Source: Candidatus Moraniibacteriota bacterium | GTDB lineage: Bacteria; Patescibacteriota; Minisyncoccia; Moranbacterales; UBA1568 | NCBI GenBank assembly: GCA_903859375.1 | Contig: CAIOMK010000022.1 | Span: 1 to 44,740, forward strand | Direction of reading: 5' to 3' | DNA length: 44,740 nucleotides | Notes under the pieces: generated by a model | Database searches by the model: none | What the model was told of the DNA's origin: nothing | The model's input: the letters and a program-made list of their open reading frames with translations, nothing else | Shown here: piece by piece, positions 22,295 to 29,294 of the stretch | Position numbering within the stretch: position 1 is the first letter of the stretch | How the letters are laid out: each line of letters starts with the position of its first letter | Position numbers and translations under genes: made by a program

Positions 22295-23626
22295 TCAGGC
22301 ATCCCCGTTCCATTCGGCGGGCCTGAAAAAAGGCTTTTCCCGCCATATCTGAGACTGACGACACAGCAATGCATGCGCGTCTTCCGGATTCCGAAGCAAC
22401 GCTTCCGAGACCTTCTCCATCCGAAGTCCCTGCGATCCCTTGACCAGAACAAGGTCTCCTTCATGAACCAAGTCCGATATCACGGCAGCCGCCGAATCTG
22501 GATCGGGAAATTGGAGTACATTCCCACGGGACATTCCCTGGGCAAGAAGCTCTTCTCCGAGAGCACGCGTCCGACGTCCGACAAGGATCACCAATCCCGT
22601 CCCGACAGCCAATACGCTCTCGGCCAGACGCAAGTGATCCTCTTCCGAACCGATGCCGAGCTCGAGCATGTCGCCGAGTGCCAAGACTTTCCTCCGCGCG
22701 GGAATCTCACCGAGTGTCGAGAGTGCCGCGGATACCGATGACGGCGAAGCGTTATAGGTGTCATCGAGCAGACCGACGCCGTTTTTCCCGCTGAGAAACC
22801 TGAGTCTGCCCGGAAGCGGTGCGAATTCCTCGAGTCGTTTCGCGATATCGACGAGATTCATGCCCACGGCGATACCGACTGCGGCACCGGCGAGCGCGTC
22901 CAGGATATGATGACGCGCGATCACGGACGGCAACCGCACTGGGATAGACTTGCCCTTATAATTCAGTTTGAAACTGGATCCTATGACACCGTCAGTTTCC
23001 TGAAGGAGGATATTGTCCGCCCGAACCGAGGCATCGGGAGAAAATCCGTATGACAGGATGACGGCCTTCGTCTTCTTCCCCATACCGAGCACCCGTTCGT
23101 CATCGGCGTTCAGGATTGCAAACCCATCAGCCGGCAACGAGGAAATCAATCGTCGTTTCTCCTTGGCGATATTGGCGACGCTTCCGAAGTATTCGAGATG
23201 GCTCTCTCCTACGAGGGTCACGACACCGATCTTGACCGGTGCGATGCGAAGAAGCGCCGTCATATCCCCCGGTCGGTCGATGCCCATCTCGAGCACCAAT
23301 GCTTTCGGGTAACGGCTCGGCAGAATCATGAGCCGAAAAAATCCTCCTATCGCGAGAAGAAAGCGAGCAATCGTTCCGTGTTGTGCCCCTATTCCAAGCA
23401 CCGCGAGAGGCAATCCGATTTCGTTATTATAATTGCCGTCGCTCTTCCCTGTCGGCATAAATCCACCCAAAACAAGCGCAGCCGCTTCTTTCGTCGAACT
23501 CTTCCCTACCGACCCCGTCACCCCGATGACAAGCGGACGATATTTACGTAACACCGAACCTGCCATGAATCCGAGCACTTTCTCAGCTACCCGTACCGTT
23601 CCTTTTTTTCCGTTGTTTTGAATCAT
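22295..23626 (-). CDS. murF: UDP-N-acetylmuramoyl-tripeptide-D-alanyl-D-alanine ligase
   Basis: Adds D-Ala-D-Ala to UDP-MurNAc-tripeptide in the cytoplasm, the last soluble step of peptidoglycan precursor synthesis. 443 residues from ATG 23626; a GTG at 23638 is also in frame. Motifs of Mur ligases: P-loop GVTGSVGKSSTKE (~35-47), DGNYNNEIGLPLAVLG (MurF type), VLEMGIDRPGDM, VGESHLEYFGS, NADDERV, LDDTYNASPSSVSAAL and LGDMLELG. It follows ftsI after a repeat-filled 697-base gap; murE, which usually precedes it, is absent from this cluster. Confidence 0.95.
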   Translation of the reverse strand: MIQNNGKKGTVRVAEKVLGFMAGSVLRKYRPLVIGVTGSVGKSSTKEAAALVLGGFMPTGKSDGNYNNEIGLPLAVLGIGAQHGTIARFLLAIGGFFRLMILPSRYPKALVLEMGIDRPGDMTALLRIAPVKIGVVTLVGESHLEYFGSVANIAKEKRRLISSLPADGFAILNADDERVLGMGKKTKAVILSYGFSPDASVRADNILLQETDGVIGSSFKLNYKGKSIPVRLPSVIARHHILDALAGAAVGIAVGMNLVDIAKRLEEFAPLPGRLRFLSGKNGVGLLDDTYNASPSSVSAALSTLGEIPARRKVLALGDMLELGIGSEEDHLRLAESVLAVGTGLVILVGRRTRALGEELLAQGMSRGNVLQFPDPDSAAAVISDLVHEGDLVLVKGSQGLRMEKVSEALLRNPEDAHALLCRQSQIWREKPFFRPAEWNGDA

Positions 23627-23638
23627 AAGCGTTCGCAC

Positions 23639-23836: not shown

Positions 23837-24320
23837 CGACTTTCGACTTTCGACTTGTGACTTTTCACTTTCGACTATTCTTCCCGTTCCCCACTTTCGA
23901 CTTTCAACTTTTCACTTGTTCCCGCTTTCGACTTATGACTATTCTCCGACTTTCGACTTTTCACTTGTGACTTTCGACTATTCTCCCCCGTCCCCACTTT
24001 CAACTTTCGACTATTCTCCCCCGTTCCCGCTTGTGACTTTCAACTTTCGACTTGTGACTATTCTTCGACTTGTGACTATTCTCCGACTTTCAACTTTCGA
24101 CTTTTCACTTGTGACTTTCGACTATTCTCCCCCGTCCCCACTTTCGACTTTCAACTTTCGACTTGTGACTATTCTTCGACTTTCAACTTTCGACTTGTGA
24201 CTATTCTTCGACTTGTGACTATTCTCCGACTTTCGACTTGTGACTATTCTCCCTCCCCGCTCCCGTTCCCGCTTTCAACTTTCAACTTTCGACTTGAGAC
24301 TATTCTCCGACTTTCGACTC
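23837..24320. repeat. Long degenerate heptad repeat tract, family A
   Basis: About 480 bases, between the ftsI stop and murF, consist of seven-base units on the plus strand such as ACTTTCG, ACTTTTC, ACTTGTG, ACTTTCA and ACTATTC, interrupted by TCTC or TCTT and by C-rich words (CCCGTTCCC). The 18-mer TGACTATTCTCCGACTTT recurs within the tract and also at the two other family-A loci (27765, 28546). Open frames through it are repetitive artefacts. Confidence 0.95.
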
Positions 24321-24323
24321 CTT

Positions 24324-26111
24324 TCATTTGGCCCCTGGAATAGGCTCTGTCGGTTCGATCTTCCCATAGGAAAGCAGGAACTTCATCATGGACCCGAACA
24401 TCGGAGCAGCACTCGATTCGGCCCACTCGACGTTCTTCGGATTGTCCACCTTGGTCAGGATGACATACTTCGGATCACCGATCGGCGCATACCCGACAAA
24501 GGATCCTATGGACAAGCCCTGCTCATACCCGCCTCCGCCTTCCTTCGCGACCTGAGCCGTCCCCGTCTTGCCACCGACCCGGTATCCCGGCACGGCGGCA
24601 CGTTTCCCGTGACCGCGAAGGACGACGCTCTCGAGCATCTTCCCCATCTTCGCCGCCGTATCTTCACTCACGACCCGACGCACCTCTTCGGGCTCCACGA
24701 TACGTTCATGTCCGTCTTCGTAGACGTATTTCTGCACGATCTGCGGTTTCATAAGGACGCCCTTGTTCGCGAGTGCGCCGTATGCCGAGATCAGTTGGAT
24801 CGGCGTCGTCGTGATGCCCTGACCGAACGAAGCGGTATAGAATTGGATATCGCGCTTGGTGTCGGCGAGGTTCCTCAGGTTTCCGGAGAGTTCCGCCGGC
24901 AAATCTATATCCGTCTTTTTCCCGAAACCGAACTGAGACATCCGTTCCGCGAAACGCGCATTCCCGACCTGACGCTCCACCGAAATGACGCCCATGTTGA
25001 TGGAATTATCGAGCACCCCGTACATATCGGTCTTTCCGTAGGTCTTTTCCTCGGCATTATGAAGGGTGTATCCGGAAAGGGTAACCGATCCAGGATCGAA
25101 AAACGGGGTCTCTGGCTCTACTTTTCCATCATCGATACCGATAGCCATGGTAATCGGTTTCATCGTCGATCCGGGCTCATAGGTCATGCTCACGGTCGGA
25201 TTTATGAAGCGGAAATAATCTTCCGTCTTCCCGTATTCGTTCGGATCGAAACTCGGATCGGACGCCATCGCGAGGATACGACCCGAAGCCGCATCCATGA
25301 CGATGACGCTTCCCCCGACCCCCGCGTATTTTTCCACTGAGTCACGCACTATCTTCTCCGCTTCATGTTGGATCACCTGGTCGATCGTCAACACGACATC
25401 GGGACCTTTCTCTGCAGGTACCACGACACGGTCATCCGTCGATATCCACCGCCCGGCGGCGTCACGCATCTGATCCACCTGACCGGATTTTCCGCGCAGT
25501 TCCGCATCGAACCACGATTCGAAACCGTATCGACCCACTTCGCCTTTTCCGGGATCTCCCGGGCTCACGAAACCGACGACCTGTGCGGCAAGATCTCCGC
25601 CGGGATAGAACCGGTTCTTCTCCTTGCGCAGATACACGCCGGGAAGTCCGAGCTCCGTCACTTTCGCCGCCTCGTCATCGGAAAGTTTCTTTTTTATCGG
25701 TGCATACTGACTGTCGAGATTCTGACACTTCGCACGGATTTCATCGGCCGGAACACCGAGTATCGAGGAAAGCGCCTCTGCAGTCGTCTTCACGTTCTCC
25801 ACTTCACCCGGCACGAGATACAGGAGCGGCGCCTCGCGGTTCACGGCAGCCGGATAGATGGTGTCCCGTTCCTGAAAATAAATCTCGCCCCGATCGGGAG
25901 TCAGCTCCGCCGATACGGACTGCTGGTTCTCCGCGACCGCCTTCCATTTATCCGCCTCGAACACCTGTACTACCGTCAATCTGAGAATGACGGCTATGCC
26001 GACCAGAAAAACAAAAAAAAGAAGAGTTCTCACCCTCCCTGTCGGAAGCGATCCATTCATCGGTTTTACAATGGCTGATGCCGATTTGTGTTTTCTCATC
26101 GCCATACTCAT
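24324..26111 (-). CDS. ftsI: Penicillin-binding protein 2/3-type transpeptidase (FtsI)
   Basis: A 595-residue class B PBP that cross-links septal peptidoglycan outside the membrane. It has an N-terminal membrane helix (~28-48), a pedestal/dimerisation domain (about 60-230) and a transpeptidase domain with all three active-site motifs: SxxK in YEPGSTMKPIT (S315, K318), SxN in LDNSINMG (S370-N372) and KTG in VGGKTGTAQ (515-517). It follows ftsL by 100 bases in the dcw order. No PASTA domains are present. Start choice among three close ATGs (26111, 26105, 26099) is uncertain. Confidence 0.96.
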   Translation of the reverse strand: MSMAMRKHKSASAIVKPMNGSLPTGRVRTLLFFVFLVGIAVILRLTVVQVFEADKWKAVAENQQSVSAELTPDRGEIYFQERDTIYPAAVNREAPLLYLVPGEVENVKTTAEALSSILGVPADEIRAKCQNLDSQYAPIKKKLSDDEAAKVTELGLPGVYLRKEKNRFYPGGDLAAQVVGFVSPGDPGKGEVGRYGFESWFDAELRGKSGQVDQMRDAAGRWISTDDRVVVPAEKGPDVVLTIDQVIQHEAEKIVRDSVEKYAGVGGSVIVMDAASGRILAMASDPSFDPNEYGKTEDYFRFINPTVSMTYEPGSTMKPITMAIGIDDGKVEPETPFFDPGSVTLSGYTLHNAEEKTYGKTDMYGVLDNSINMGVISVERQVGNARFAERMSQFGFGKKTDIDLPAELSGNLRNLADTKRDIQFYTASFGQGITTTPIQLISAYGALANKGVLMKPQIVQKYVYEDGHERIVEPEEVRRVVSEDTAAKMGKMLESVVLRGHGKRAAVPGYRVGGKTGTAQVAKEGGGGYEQGLSIGSFVGYAPIGDPKYVILTKVDNPKNVEWAESSAAPMFGSMMKFLLSYGKIEPTEPIPGAK

Positions 26112-26211
26112 ACGGACAAGCTACCAATTTCGGGCGCCGAGAAAGTCCGTGTTCCAAAATACGTCTCGAATCCGAAGCGAACGGGTCACTCCGCGCCTTC
26201 GGGACAGATCT

Positions 26212-26553
26212 CTACCGAAAAGCGACCGTACCCCGTCCCCCGACGGTCTTCAGGTCGGTCGGGCGATCCATCTCCTTGCTCTTTGCCGAATCCTCAATAT
26301 GCGAAAGGGACAAAGCCTGAGCCTCGGAAATCTTCAACTTCCGGTTCTCCTCCTTGAGTTGAGAAATATCGGACTCCACTTTCCGCTCCTCATATCCCTG
26401 GGTCGCACCGCGATTGAGCGCGTACACGTAAGCTATGCTCGACAGGAAAAATACAAACAGTCCGACGATCGCCACCGGATGAACAGCACCTGAAAAAGAT
26501 GACTTCTTTCCTGGAATGTTTCGTTGCTCCGAGACATGGTAATCCTTTTTCAT
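26212..26553 (-). CDS. ftsL: FtsL-like divisome protein
   Basis: A 113-residue bitopic protein, recognised by position (between rsmH and ftsI) and architecture rather than by strong sequence motifs. It has a short basic cytoplasmic N-terminus, a membrane helix (~24-44, VHPVAIVGLFVFFLSSIAYVY), and a periplasmic coiled coil (GYEERKVESDISQLKEENRK) like FtsL/DivIC. These proteins recruit and activate FtsW-FtsI at the septum. ATG at 26553 is the natural start; the open frame extending to 26757 crosses a repeat and the rsmH end and is not credible. Confidence 0.8.
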   Translation of the reverse strand: MKKDYHVSEQRNIPGKKSSFSGAVHPVAIVGLFVFFLSSIAYVYALNRGATQGYEERKVESDISQLKEENRKLKISEAQALSLSHIEDSAKSKEMDRPTDLKTVGGRGTVAFR

Positions 26554-26608
26554 ATGTTTGTGCCCCTGTTTTTTGTTTATTTTTTTTCGGCCTTCGACCC
26601 GAGACCGA

Positions 26609-26680
26609 CTCCCATCTTTTTGTTCCCGTCTCCGACTTGTGTCCCCGTAAAACCTTGATGACTCGGCCACGGGGCATGCT
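26609..26680. repeat. Hairpin repeat module, copy 2, with heptad words
   Basis: CCCCGTA at 26643-26649 pairs with CACGGGG at 26668-26674, then GCATGC, as in 7167-7200. On the ftsL side it continues into words of family A (minus strand ACAAGTCGGAGACGGGAAC). It lies between the rsmH stop and ftsL, so it is probably transcribed within the dcw mRNA. Confidence 0.6.
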
Positions 26681-26689
26681 TTCGATTGT

Positions 26690-27655
26690 TCATGCCCTCT
26701 CTGCCACCCGGAGTTTCGCACTCCGTGCCCGCGGATTTTCTGCGATTTCGGCTTCACTTGGCAAGATGAATTTCGGTGAGAGTGTCTTTATCAGTGGTAG
26801 CTGTCCACAGACACACTTCGGAAATCCCGTCGGACAGACACATCCTTTCGACAATTCCGAGAACACCCGTTTGACCAACGCATCCTCTCCGGAATGGAAC
26901 GTGATGACCGCGATACGGCCACCCTTCCGGAGCAATGGGATCCCATCATGCAGGAACGTCTTGATGACCGACAATTCCCCGTTCACTTCGATCCGGATCG
27001 CCTGGAACACTTTCGTCGCCGGATGAATGTTCATCTTCCTCCGCTCGACATCCGAGTAGCATCCGGAAACCGTTTCCGCAAGCTCGGACGTCCGTTCAAA
27101 GGACTTCACCTCCCGCCGTGCCACGATCGCCTTCGCTATCTTCCATGCCTTCGGTTCATCGCCGTACTCACGGAACAATTTCGCGAGGGCCTCATCATCC
27201 CATCCGTTCACGATGGTCGCCGCGGTCGTTTCCGTACGTTCGTCGAGCCGCATATCGAGCGGCCCGTCCGAACGGAAAGAAAATCCACGCTCTGCTTCGT
27301 CCATCTGGTCCGTCGAGAACCCGAAGTCCGCGAGCATCGCATCCACTTCACCTATTCCGAGAGATCGGAGCATTTCCGCGACCCGGGAAAAATTTTCCCG
27401 AACCACGACAAGCGAACCGTCCTCCATCGCCTGCCGCACACCGGTATCCGATTCCGCGGACCGCTGAAAACGCCCGATCGCCCTCTCATCGGCGTCGAAT
27501 GCGACCACCCTCCCACCGGGAAGCACACAGGAAAGTATCTTTCTCGTATGCCCACCGCCTCCGAGGGTCGCATCCACCGCCACGTCACCCTTTTGAAGGT
27601 TCATCGCCACTATCGCCTCGTTGAGTAATACTGGAATGTGTCTCGTCTCTTTCAT
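26690..27655 (-). CDS. rsmH: 16S rRNA (cytosine-1402-N4)-methyltransferase
   Basis: RsmH (MraW) methylates N4 of C1402 in 16S rRNA using SAM. 321 residues. The start MKETRHIPVLLNEAI is the family signature; the SAM site is DATLGGGGHTRKIL (28-41), followed by DADERAIGRF, LADFGFSTDQMDEAERGFSF and the C-terminal VITFHSGEDALVKR (normally FHSLED; here SGED, a mild change). It is the second gene of the dcw cluster, 190 bases after mraZ because of a repeat tract. Confidence 0.96.
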   Translation of the reverse strand: MKETRHIPVLLNEAIVAMNLQKGDVAVDATLGGGGHTRKILSCVLPGGRVVAFDADERAIGRFQRSAESDTGVRQAMEDGSLVVVRENFSRVAEMLRSLGIGEVDAMLADFGFSTDQMDEAERGFSFRSDGPLDMRLDERTETTAATIVNGWDDEALAKLFREYGDEPKAWKIAKAIVARREVKSFERTSELAETVSGCYSDVERRKMNIHPATKVFQAIRIEVNGELSVIKTFLHDGIPLLRKGGRIAVITFHSGEDALVKRVFSELSKGCVCPTGFPKCVCGQLPLIKTLSPKFILPSEAEIAENPRARSAKLRVAERA

Positions 27656-27764
27656 AACAATCCGAACATCAGGAATGAATACCGCTCACGTTTGTTTTCA
27701 TTACCGATGTCCGCCCTGTTTCGTTTTCTCTTCTTTGTTTTTTCTTTTTCCTCTTCTCTTTCCG

Positions 27765-27845
27765 TTCCCGACTTTCGACTTATGACTATTCTCCGACTTG
27801 TGACTATTCTCCGACTTTTCACTTTTCACTTTTCACTTTTCACTT
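27765..27845. repeat. Family-A heptad tract between mraZ and rsmH
   Basis: About 80 bases immediately after the mraZ stop codon contain TATGACTATTCTCCGACTTG, TGACTATTCTCCGACTTT and four successive seven-base units TCACTTT. It shares the 18-mer TGACTATTCTCCGACTTT with the other two family-A loci. Confidence 0.9.
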
Positions 27846-27846
27846 C

Positions 27847-28281
27847 CTAATAGATTCCTAGCTTCCCAAGTTCCTCCGCGATACCATCCGTGTTCTTCTC
27901 CGCCTCGGACTTGTATGCCTTCCATCCGTCCTCGTCCCAGATCTCGAGTCTATTGAAGAGACCGACGACGACGACGTTCTTTCCGAGTCCCGCGAATTCC
28001 TTGAGGTAGTCCGGGATAAGCACGCGACCTTGGCTGTCGAGTTCCGCGTCTGTCGCGCCCGCGAGCTGCAACCGTATGAAACTTCGCGTCGCCGCTTCAC
28101 CGACCGGCATCGTACCGAGTTTCTCCGCGAGCTCTTCCCACACTTTCATCGGATACACGAAAAGCGAACGGTCCAAACCCCTCGTGACGACCACCCGGCT
28201 ACCAAGCTCCCCGCGGAACTTTGATGGCAGCGCGATGCGCCGCTTCGGGTCGATACTGTGCGAATATTCTCCGATGAACAT
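27847..28281 (-). CDS. mraZ: Transcriptional regulator MraZ
   Basis: A 144-residue DNA-binding protein with two SpoVT/AbrB-like halves. MFIGEYSHSIDPKRRIALPSKFR opens the first half (split here as residues 1-14 and 15-23), and DSQGRVLIPDYLKEFAGL marks the second. MraZ binds short direct repeats upstream of its own gene and usually represses the dcw operon. ATG at 28281 is the conserved start; a GTG at 28302 is in frame but adds seven non-conserved residues. It is first in the dcw cluster behind a strong promoter. Confidence 0.96.
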   Translation of the reverse strand: MFIGEYSHSIDPKRRIALPSKFRGELGSRVVVTRGLDRSLFVYPMKVWEELAEKLGTMPVGEAATRSFIRLQLAGATDAELDSQGRVLIPDYLKEFAGLGKNVVVVGLFNRLEIWDEDGWKAYKSEAEKNTDGIAEELGKLGIY

Positions 28282-28286
28282 AGATT

Positions 28287-28302
28287 CACCACTCTTCCCC
28301 AC
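28287..28302 (-). promoter_or_regulatory. Possible MraZ-binding repeats in the mraZ leader
   Basis: On the minus strand GTGGGG (28297-28302) and GTGGTG (28287-28292) start 10 bases apart, between the promoter and the mraZ ATG. MraZ boxes in other bacteria are TGGG-type direct repeats with 10-base spacing, normally three. Only two are seen here and one is imperfect. Confidence 0.3.
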
Positions 28303-28321
28303 TTATTAGTACTTCAACGAC

Positions 28322-28351
28322 ATTTTACTCCACTCCTCTTTCCATTGTCAA
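28322..28351 (-). promoter_or_regulatory. Sigma-70-type promoter of the dcw cluster
   Basis: TTGACA (28346-28351) and TAAAAT (28322-28327) on the minus strand are separated by 18 bases, about 40 bases before the mraZ ATG. This is a near-consensus promoter at the expected place. Confidence 0.75.
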
Positions 28352-28377
28352 CACTTTCAGAAAATCCCTTATATAAA

Positions 28378-28402
28378 ACAAAAAAACAGCCCCACTGGCT
28401 GT
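28378..28402 (-). terminator. Hairpin with T-run upstream of the mraZ promoter
   Basis: A perfect 6-bp stem ACAGCC/GGCTGT (28386-28391, 28397-28402) with a 5-base loop is followed on the minus strand by seven T. It lies 27 bases before the -35 box, and the only gene upstream already has its own terminator at 28739, so it may end a short untranslated transcript. Confidence 0.65.
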
Positions 28403-28461
28403 CAAAACACCCCATTTCCGGTCTTTTTGACTGTATCGCCCCATCGCTCATTTTCCACACT

Positions 28462-28478
28462 CCCCTCCCTTCCCTCCC
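28462..28478 (-). other. G-quadruplex motif upstream of mraZ
   Basis: On the minus strand four G-runs are spaced by one or two bases: GGGAGGGAAGGGAGGGG. This fits the strict intramolecular G-quadruplex rule (four runs of at least three G, loops 1-7). It lies about 110 bases upstream of the mraZ -35 box. A function is not established. Confidence 0.6.
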
Positions 28479-28545
28479 GATTTCGTTCCAAATTCTGATC
28501 TTTTGTAAATTATTTCTTGTCACCGTTCCCGCTCCCGTTCCCTCT

Positions 28546-28675
28546 TTTCACTTTCGACTTTTCACTTGTGACTATTCTCCGACTTTCGACTTTCGACTTT
28601 CGACTTCTGACTATTCTCCGACTTGTGACTATTCTCCGACTTTTCACTTTTCACTTTTCACTTTCGACTACTCTC
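28546..28675. repeat. Family-A heptad tract upstream of mraZ
   Basis: About 130 bases of plus-strand units ACTTTCG, ACTTTTC, ACTTGTG and ACTATTC, with two copies of TGACTATTCTCCGACTT. It lies between the 28739 terminator and the G-rich block, within a 500-base stretch without a gene (28282-28781). Confidence 0.92.
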
Positions 28676-28738
28676 CCCTTCACCCTTTCCTTCCACATGA
28701 ACTTCATACCTCTGTTCCTCAATATTTTTTGTTCCTGG

Positions 28739-28781: not shown

Positions 28782-29294
28782 TCAAAGAAGTTTTGCCATC
28801 GAATATTTCCCTCTGTCTCCGACACGCCCGCTACCGATCTCATCAAGGGAAATCTGCTTTCCGGTTTCGGCATCGATTCCGAAGAATCTGATATCCCTAC
28901 CGCCTACGAGCATCCGTATCGCTCCGACATTCTCTTCGCGACACACTTCGGCACAGCTCTCTCCTTCATAAAGGAATCCGACATGCCATTCACTCACATC
29001 CGAGGACGGCTTGAGAACCACATAGTTCCTCCAGCCTCCGAAGATCGGCATATGACATTTCAAGCCCGAACAGGATTCCCCAGGAATCCCTGATCGGAAA
29101 ACCATCAGCTCGTTATCGAGATCAAAGGTCTTGGATTGGGAAAGTTTCATGTAATTCAACGGTCCGATACCGCTTTTGGGCTCTTCCCAAACCGTTCCCG
29201 AAACGATGTGCATGGGCAACCTCATAACGAGACAGGCAAGTCTGGCGACCGGACCCAAGGGGTCTACGTGTATAACTGCGTTTTTCTGTTCCAT
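28782..29294 (-). CDS. Hypothetical protein, 170 residues
   Basis: No family recognised. The start has an excellent ribosome site (GGGAGG, 7 bases upstream), and a consensus promoter and terminator bracket the gene, so it is a real single-gene unit. The protein is soluble with no signal peptide or membrane helix, and carries four cysteines, two of them in GESCSGLKCHMP and two in GESCAEVCREE; paired as CxxxxC and CxxxC these could bind metal or form disulphides. Hydrophobic strands (HVGFLYEG, AIRMLVGGRDIRFFGID) suggest a beta-rich fold. The IS insertion lies 4 bases upstream of its -35 box. Confidence 0.75.
   Translation of the reverse strand: MEQKNAVIHVDPLGPVARLACLVMRLPMHIVSGTVWEEPKSGIGPLNYMKLSQSKTFDLDNELMVFRSGIPGESCSGLKCHMPIFGGWRNYVVLKPSSDVSEWHVGFLYEGESCAEVCREENVGAIRMLVGGRDIRFFGIDAETGKQISLDEIGSGRVGDRGKYSMAKLL

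Follow-up and report, generated by a model that had tools for sequence, protein, structure and literature searches.

The tracts of degenerate 7-bp repeats that occur in the dcw gene cluster of a Candidatus Moraniibacteriota bacterium are real, and most likely a neutral product of array growth with a 7-nt step. They belong to a large set of comparable arrays, which is dispersed over the genome, shows a consistent polarity with respect to adjoining genes and differs strongly between closely related species.

Heptad tracts in the dcw gene neighborhood

A preliminary description of the window (the whole stretch of 44,740 nt analyzed here, from contig CAIOMK010000022.1) reported three such tracts, and all three were found in place and far above chance expectation (Table 1). 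They are composed of heptads with 4-bp breaks, which together produce an 18-nt higher unit, and additionally contain GGGAAC-like inserts (GGGAAC and GGGGAC within tract 1). The genes flanking them lie on the minus strand, and in their sense the tracts read GAAAGTC, ACAAGTC, GAAAAGTG and GAATAGTC. The 18-mer TGACTATTCTCCGACTTT, earlier noticed as common to the three loci, indeed recurs in each of them (6 exact copies and 12 with up to two mismatches), and ACTTNNNACTTNNNACTT, a triplet of the ACTTNNN heptad core, has 23 copies in the window, all on the plus strand and in these tracts; shuffled sequences yielded none of either. As originally described, tracts 1 and 2 follow the stop codons of ftsI and mraZ, starting 3 nt and 1 nt past the respective ORFs, with tract 2 preceding an rsmH leader that is common to two congeners (G002 and G005). 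Tract 3 had been placed upstream of mraZ, which holds in map order only: the conserved mraZ promoter and a terminator-like hairpin (in a region where the count of terminator-like sites is not above that in shuffles) both lie downstream of it, so that it falls outside an mRNA starting at this promoter. None of the tracts matched an Rfam family above its gathering score, and two tRNAs were the sole matches in the eight sources searched, including the window, and a known Rfam family was therefore rejected. An RNA hairpin in these tracts was likewise rejected, as their predicted folds are no better than chance (z from -1.3 to +1).

Table 1. Positions of the heptad tracts, their neighboring genes and signals, and associated repeats
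Feature	Source	Position	Strand	Remarks
Tract 1	window	23837-24320	+	ACTTNNN heptads; (GAAAGTC)-type on mRNA strand of ftsI
Tract 2	window	27765-27845	+	mraZ-rsmH spacer
Tract 3	window	28546-28676	+	gap from gene 28782-29294 to mraZ promoter
Mur ligase gene	window	22295-23638	-	next gene after tract 1
ftsI	window	24324-26111	-	transpeptidase, PBP dimer domain
rsmH	window	26690-27655	-	MraW methylase family
mraZ	window	27847-28281	-	
mraZ promoter	window	28322-28351	-	TTGACA, 18 nt, TAAAAT; conserved across the six congeners
Terminator-like hairpin (T run)	window	28385-28403	-	between tract 3 and mraZ promoter
Second repeat	window	26643-26683	-	
Second repeat	L053	9927-9967	+	
Second repeat	L057	6293-6343	-	
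Second repeat	L081	2770-2810	+	
Palindromic repeats at tract	L044	4037-4413		
Palindromic repeats at tract	L045	9358-9575		
Palindromic repeats at tract	L052	7-382		
Palindromic repeats at tract	L058	59-521		
Heptad-armed stop-to-start hairpins	L075; L080; L075	11310-11400; 4823-4913; 12358-12465		G003/G004 mraZ-rsmH; G004 rsmH-ftsL

Genome-wide distribution and polarity

The genome comprises 1.03 Mb in 78 contigs, which were read as stretches around matches; its size, its gene set and its kinship to other genomes point to the candidate phyla radiation. At least about 46 tract loci, four of which have other heptads, could be mapped on 26 contigs. The 18-mer was recovered with at most one mismatch in 43 places on 13 contigs (none for the reversed control), and runs of four ACTT heptads, again with at most one mismatch, in 294 places (21 for the reversed control). 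The window, representing 4.3% of the genome, holds three loci and hence no surplus (p = 0.35, calculated with 48 loci). The proposed confinement of the tracts to the cell-division cluster is therefore untenable, and dcw spacers show no enrichment; the tracts occupy many other spacers, the distribution that the preliminary description itself had named as contrary to its view, and a dcw-specific role was rejected on these grounds. On 15 contigs a tract lies within 120 nt of an end; since the tracts are long, repeated and assembly-breaking, their lengths are uncertain.

The suspected strand bias of the tracts relative to transcription proved to be real. Using gene calls from a simple hexamer-score script, in which single gene edges may be off, we found that the purine strand (GAAAGTC...) usually begins 1-35 nt past a stop codon in the sense of the gene. 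Read 5' to 3' on this strand, the upstream end of the tract (its tail) lies at a median distance of 25 nt from the gene edge and the other end (its head) at 159 nt, the tail being nearer to the gene in 23 of 29 tracts (p = 0.001). Among the 25 tracts with a tail no more than 35 nt from a gene, 18 follow a stop codon and are in sense, while 7 precede a start codon and are in antisense, the latter being mostly short. Long tracts between co-directional genes are oriented in sense in 12 cases versus 2 in antisense. On contig C33 the orientation matches that of the adjoining gene at 5 of 6 arrays, and replication direction is therefore unlikely to set the polarity.

Genes preceding the tracts of this genome end in TAG far more often than genes overall (13/18 versus 96/381, p = 2e-5), and the array itself may supply this stop. 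Quadruplex-type motifs in the tracts are restricted to the purine strand (12, with none on the other) and derive from the inserts, the heptads themselves being devoid of G runs. On the pyrimidine strand before start codons, TATACT-like words, which might be read as promoters, were noticed by eye in some arrays and were lacking in others. One further tract (L053, 5342-5581) starts 6 nt before a 3.5-kb ORF with the start MSDFVHLHVHSHFSLL, which is dnaE-like by eye and has no visible Shine-Dalgarno sequence.

Turnover of arrays among congeners

The orthologous dcw genes are present in five congeners (G001 to G005; one genome was sampled per species), which allowed the same spacers to be compared. 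The spacer behind ftsI measures about 697 nt here versus about 90-200 nt in the five congeners. The part adjoining the next gene, which is promoter-like, is conserved; tract 1 lies between it and the stop codon. The comparison revealed a long tract in this one genome and no counterpart of it in any of the five, G002 having just a short two-unit AAAGT stretch. Behind mraZ, G002 and G005 have an rsmH leader of the type seen here without tract 2. In G001, G003 and G004 the entire stop-to-start spacer between mraZ and rsmH consists of inverted heptad arms (TAACTGACAACATACAACTGACAAC ... GTTGTGAGTGGTGAGTTGTCGG), and the G004 version includes a TAACTGA heptamer. The predicted folds of the mraZ-rsmH hairpins of G003 and G004, and of a similar rsmH-ftsL hairpin in G004, reach z values of -6.5 to -8. 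When the mraZ-rsmH hairpins of G003 and G004 are compared, the arms seem to have changed less than the loop, which hints at a function in these two species. Where G001 and G004 have arrays at orthologous places, these differ mostly by point changes inside units. The genus thus offers a series of species, from the array-rich genome studied here through the hairpin forms of G001, G003 and G004 to the nearly array-free G005, in which birth, growth and loss of arrays are directly testable.

Arrays in frame within enzyme genes

Comparable arrays also occur inside genes. In TsaD of six congeners differing repeat insertions are found at one loop, every one of them in open frame, with units of GAAAGTC in the genome under study, CTCACGA in G003, GGAAATT in G001, G002 and G004, and an ACAACTC type in G005. 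MiaA and Tgt of the genome under study also carry arrays, and in the array-rich relative G075 there are three in TsaD and others in UvrC, RlmN, GatB, PrmC, a glycosyltransferase and a P-type ATPase. AAGT arrays within genes of this and related genomes are in sense in 39 of 42 cases, a count drawn from sets that were partly picked by the ACTT pattern and cover such units only. This bias is in part trivial, because the antisense TTTTGAC units contain a TGA stop, and arrays of GAAAGTC and GCAAGTC units are the informative ones. Besides breaking assemblies, the heptad tracts inflate the predicted proteins of these bacteria.

Prevalence of the 7-nt period in the wider group

In a scan for tandem periods that is independent of the unit sequence (the stretches from the genome under study having been partly chosen for their tracts), 7 emerged as the dominant period of the group. 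G075 has 103 period-7 arrays in 398 kb versus 0-4 at periods that are not multiples of 7; 34 of the 103 are coding, and no array with a period of 4-6 or 8-11 was found in coding sequence. Coding DNA should favor multiples of three, yet period 7 prevails there as well; the 7-nt step must therefore stem from the array maker and not from selection on proteins. A second relative, G059, shows 37 such arrays in 160 kb, the genome under study 14 in 214 kb (9 at period 18, that of the higher unit), G005 one in 140 kb and E. coli K-12 none in 100 kb. The units vary from genome to genome and within one genome. Intergenic arrays of G075 are often placed directly after stop or before start codons, several forming inverted arms in one spacer, and those adjacent to gene edges show a preferred orientation (29 versus 11, p = 0.006, by crude word counts); in G059 they are too few to judge. 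Two heptad words searched phylum-wide have a patchy distribution, being found in 22/380 and 36/380 genomes. Three consecutive AAAGTCN heptads were also seen in 77 stretches of IMG/VR contigs classed as viral (L181-L257).

Relationship to known repeats

The tracts have a 7-nt tandem unit repeated beyond chance and accordingly qualify as heptanucleotide simple sequence repeats. Heptamers are over-represented among bacterial repeats in general, and we know of no agreed cause for this. The STRR of cyanobacteria are tandem 7-nt units outside genes; the present tracts are likewise tandem and of 7 nt, and are set apart, as far as descriptions allow, by other units, another host and their degeneracy. 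The Rickettsia palindromic elements are conserved palindromes of about 100-150 nt that are located both between genes and, in frame, inside genes for conserved proteins. The in-frame copies in TsaD, MiaA and Tgt, and in UvrC, RlmN, GatB and PrmC of G075, are reminiscent of these; unlike them, however, the present elements consist of tandem 7-nt units that differ among arrays, and the tracts of this genome do not fold beyond chance.

The GGGAATC repeats of Xanthomonas and the GGGGA(T/C)T repeats of Nostoc are G-rich intergenic heptamers, located nearer to the 5' neighboring ORF than to the downstream one whatever the orientation of the ORFs, and vary strongly in length and sequence among close relatives (PMC4692102, where Calothrix heptanucleotides are also mentioned). 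The present tracts share with them the 7-nt unit, the intergenic location closer to the 5' ORF (as in the tail position above) and the strong variation in length and sequence among close relatives; they differ in their degenerate AAAGTNN-type unit with 4-bp breaks, in having quadruplex motifs in inserts only with no G-run heptad, and in occurring also in frame in enzyme genes. The TAACTGA direct repeats of Beggiatoaceae, Cyanobacteria and Bacteroidetes are exact heptamer copies mostly found just before start codons, with some sets in ORFs (PMC4679880). Common to both are the 7-nt unit, placement at ORF edges, genome-wide scatter and some sets in ORFs, whereas the tracts described here have a degenerate AAAGTNN-type unit and, where adjacent to an edge, stand mostly behind stop codons (18/25). 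The tracts are therefore a further form of the known heptanucleotide repeats, distinguished by unit, degeneracy, behind-stop placement and in-frame arrays. Literature searches of partial coverage, one of them limited to the best 20 of many matches, yielded no earlier account of arrays of this kind in these bacteria.

Origin and persistence of the arrays

Based on these observations we consider it on balance probable that the arrays are local blooms of degenerate heptads, formed by slipped or re-copied synthesis in a 7-nt register in the absence of MutS and kept where they are tolerated, with no division-specific role. Slipped or re-copied DNA synthesis would extend the arrays, and the missing MutS mismatch repair would leave slipped synthesis unrepaired; the arrays would then persist only at tolerant sites, namely directly after stop codons, ahead of certain start codons, past promoters and, in frame, in enzyme loops, with selection presumably barring them from promoters, leaders and protein cores. 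The assignment of the generator to slippage or re-copying is an inference, as is the neutrality of most copies. In the first interpretation, too, the best-supported part is that the tracts spread in this way and resemble heptameric STRR. No MutS (PF00488, the MutS_V domain) was found in 94 of the 95 relatives searched, the genome under study included, as against 11 of 14 controls that have it; its loss is not the whole cause, because the array-poor G005 lacks it too. An earlier proposal, known to us as cited in PMC4692102, links heptamers to the DNA segment gripped by DNA polymerase.

Slippage alone does not predict that the arrays point away from gene edges with a fixed polarity, that they form inverted arms in one spacer or that 7 is preferred over shorter units, and the first two of these leave room for a dedicated process that adds heptads outward, by 3'-end extension at breaks with rejoining, hairpin template switching or a small mobile element. 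We regard such a process as unlikely, even though it would yield fixed polarity and inverted arms, as observed in the placement of tails at gene edges (23/29, p = 0.001), the orientation bias of G075 (29 versus 11, p = 0.006) and the like units that flank a single spacer as inverted arms, and would accord with the recurrence of identical words across the phylum. Against it, no associated gene was found, neither a common terminal sequence nor a target duplication was seen, and the loops between arms are unrelated, which implies that the arms did not arise by copying of a single element. A reverse transcriptase (PF00078) is disfavored as the array maker, there being none in the array-rich G075 and one in the array-poor G005. 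In its strongest form, which we can put forward only tentatively, the idea implies a DNA-level generator active in genomes of the phylum, with a fixed 7-nt step, proceeding outward from conserved DNA, often producing inverted arms and drawing on a shared heptad vocabulary. If true, this generator would remodel spacers and insert peptides with a 7-residue period into loops of essential enzymes. The generator of the arrays is the question of interest here.

Rather improbable, in our estimate, is a role of the arrays as functional 3'-UTR or DNA elements, be it as arrays for RNA- or DNA-binding proteins, quadruplex formers or transcription-unit insulators. It would fit the sense polarity behind stop codons, the restriction of all 12 quadruplex-type motifs to the purine strand, the folding of the heptad hairpins of relatives (z of -6.5 to -8) and the translational or quadruplex elements proposed for related repeats elsewhere (PMC4679880, PMC4692102). 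However, orthologous spacers lack the tracts, the tracts of this genome do not fold above chance, the same arrays are found within coding sequence, which excludes a UTR role there, and the adjoining genes, which include dcw, tRNA-modification and repair genes, do not form one class. The initial suggestions of RNA spacers in the dcw mRNA and of protein-binding arrays run against the genome-wide spread without local excess, the tract-free orthologous spacers of relatives, the location of tract 3 outside the mRNA that starts at the mraZ promoter and the absence of a fold beyond chance. An assembly artefact, to which the 15 contigs with terminal tracts of uncertain length might point, is very improbable in view of the unique sequence on both flanks at many loci and the like arrays, some at shared sites, in the separate genomes G001 to G004.

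Other repeats beside the tracts

A second repeat of about 41-51 nt, GAAAGNNTGCCCCGTG(hairpin)ACGGGG, is present in four copies in the 750 kb that were read and adjoins heptads; the copy in L081 is inside tsaD. Palindromic repeats such as ATGCCGGGTCGTAGCCCGGCATGACAG are embedded in or located beside heptad tracts, as if the latter were collecting other repeats.
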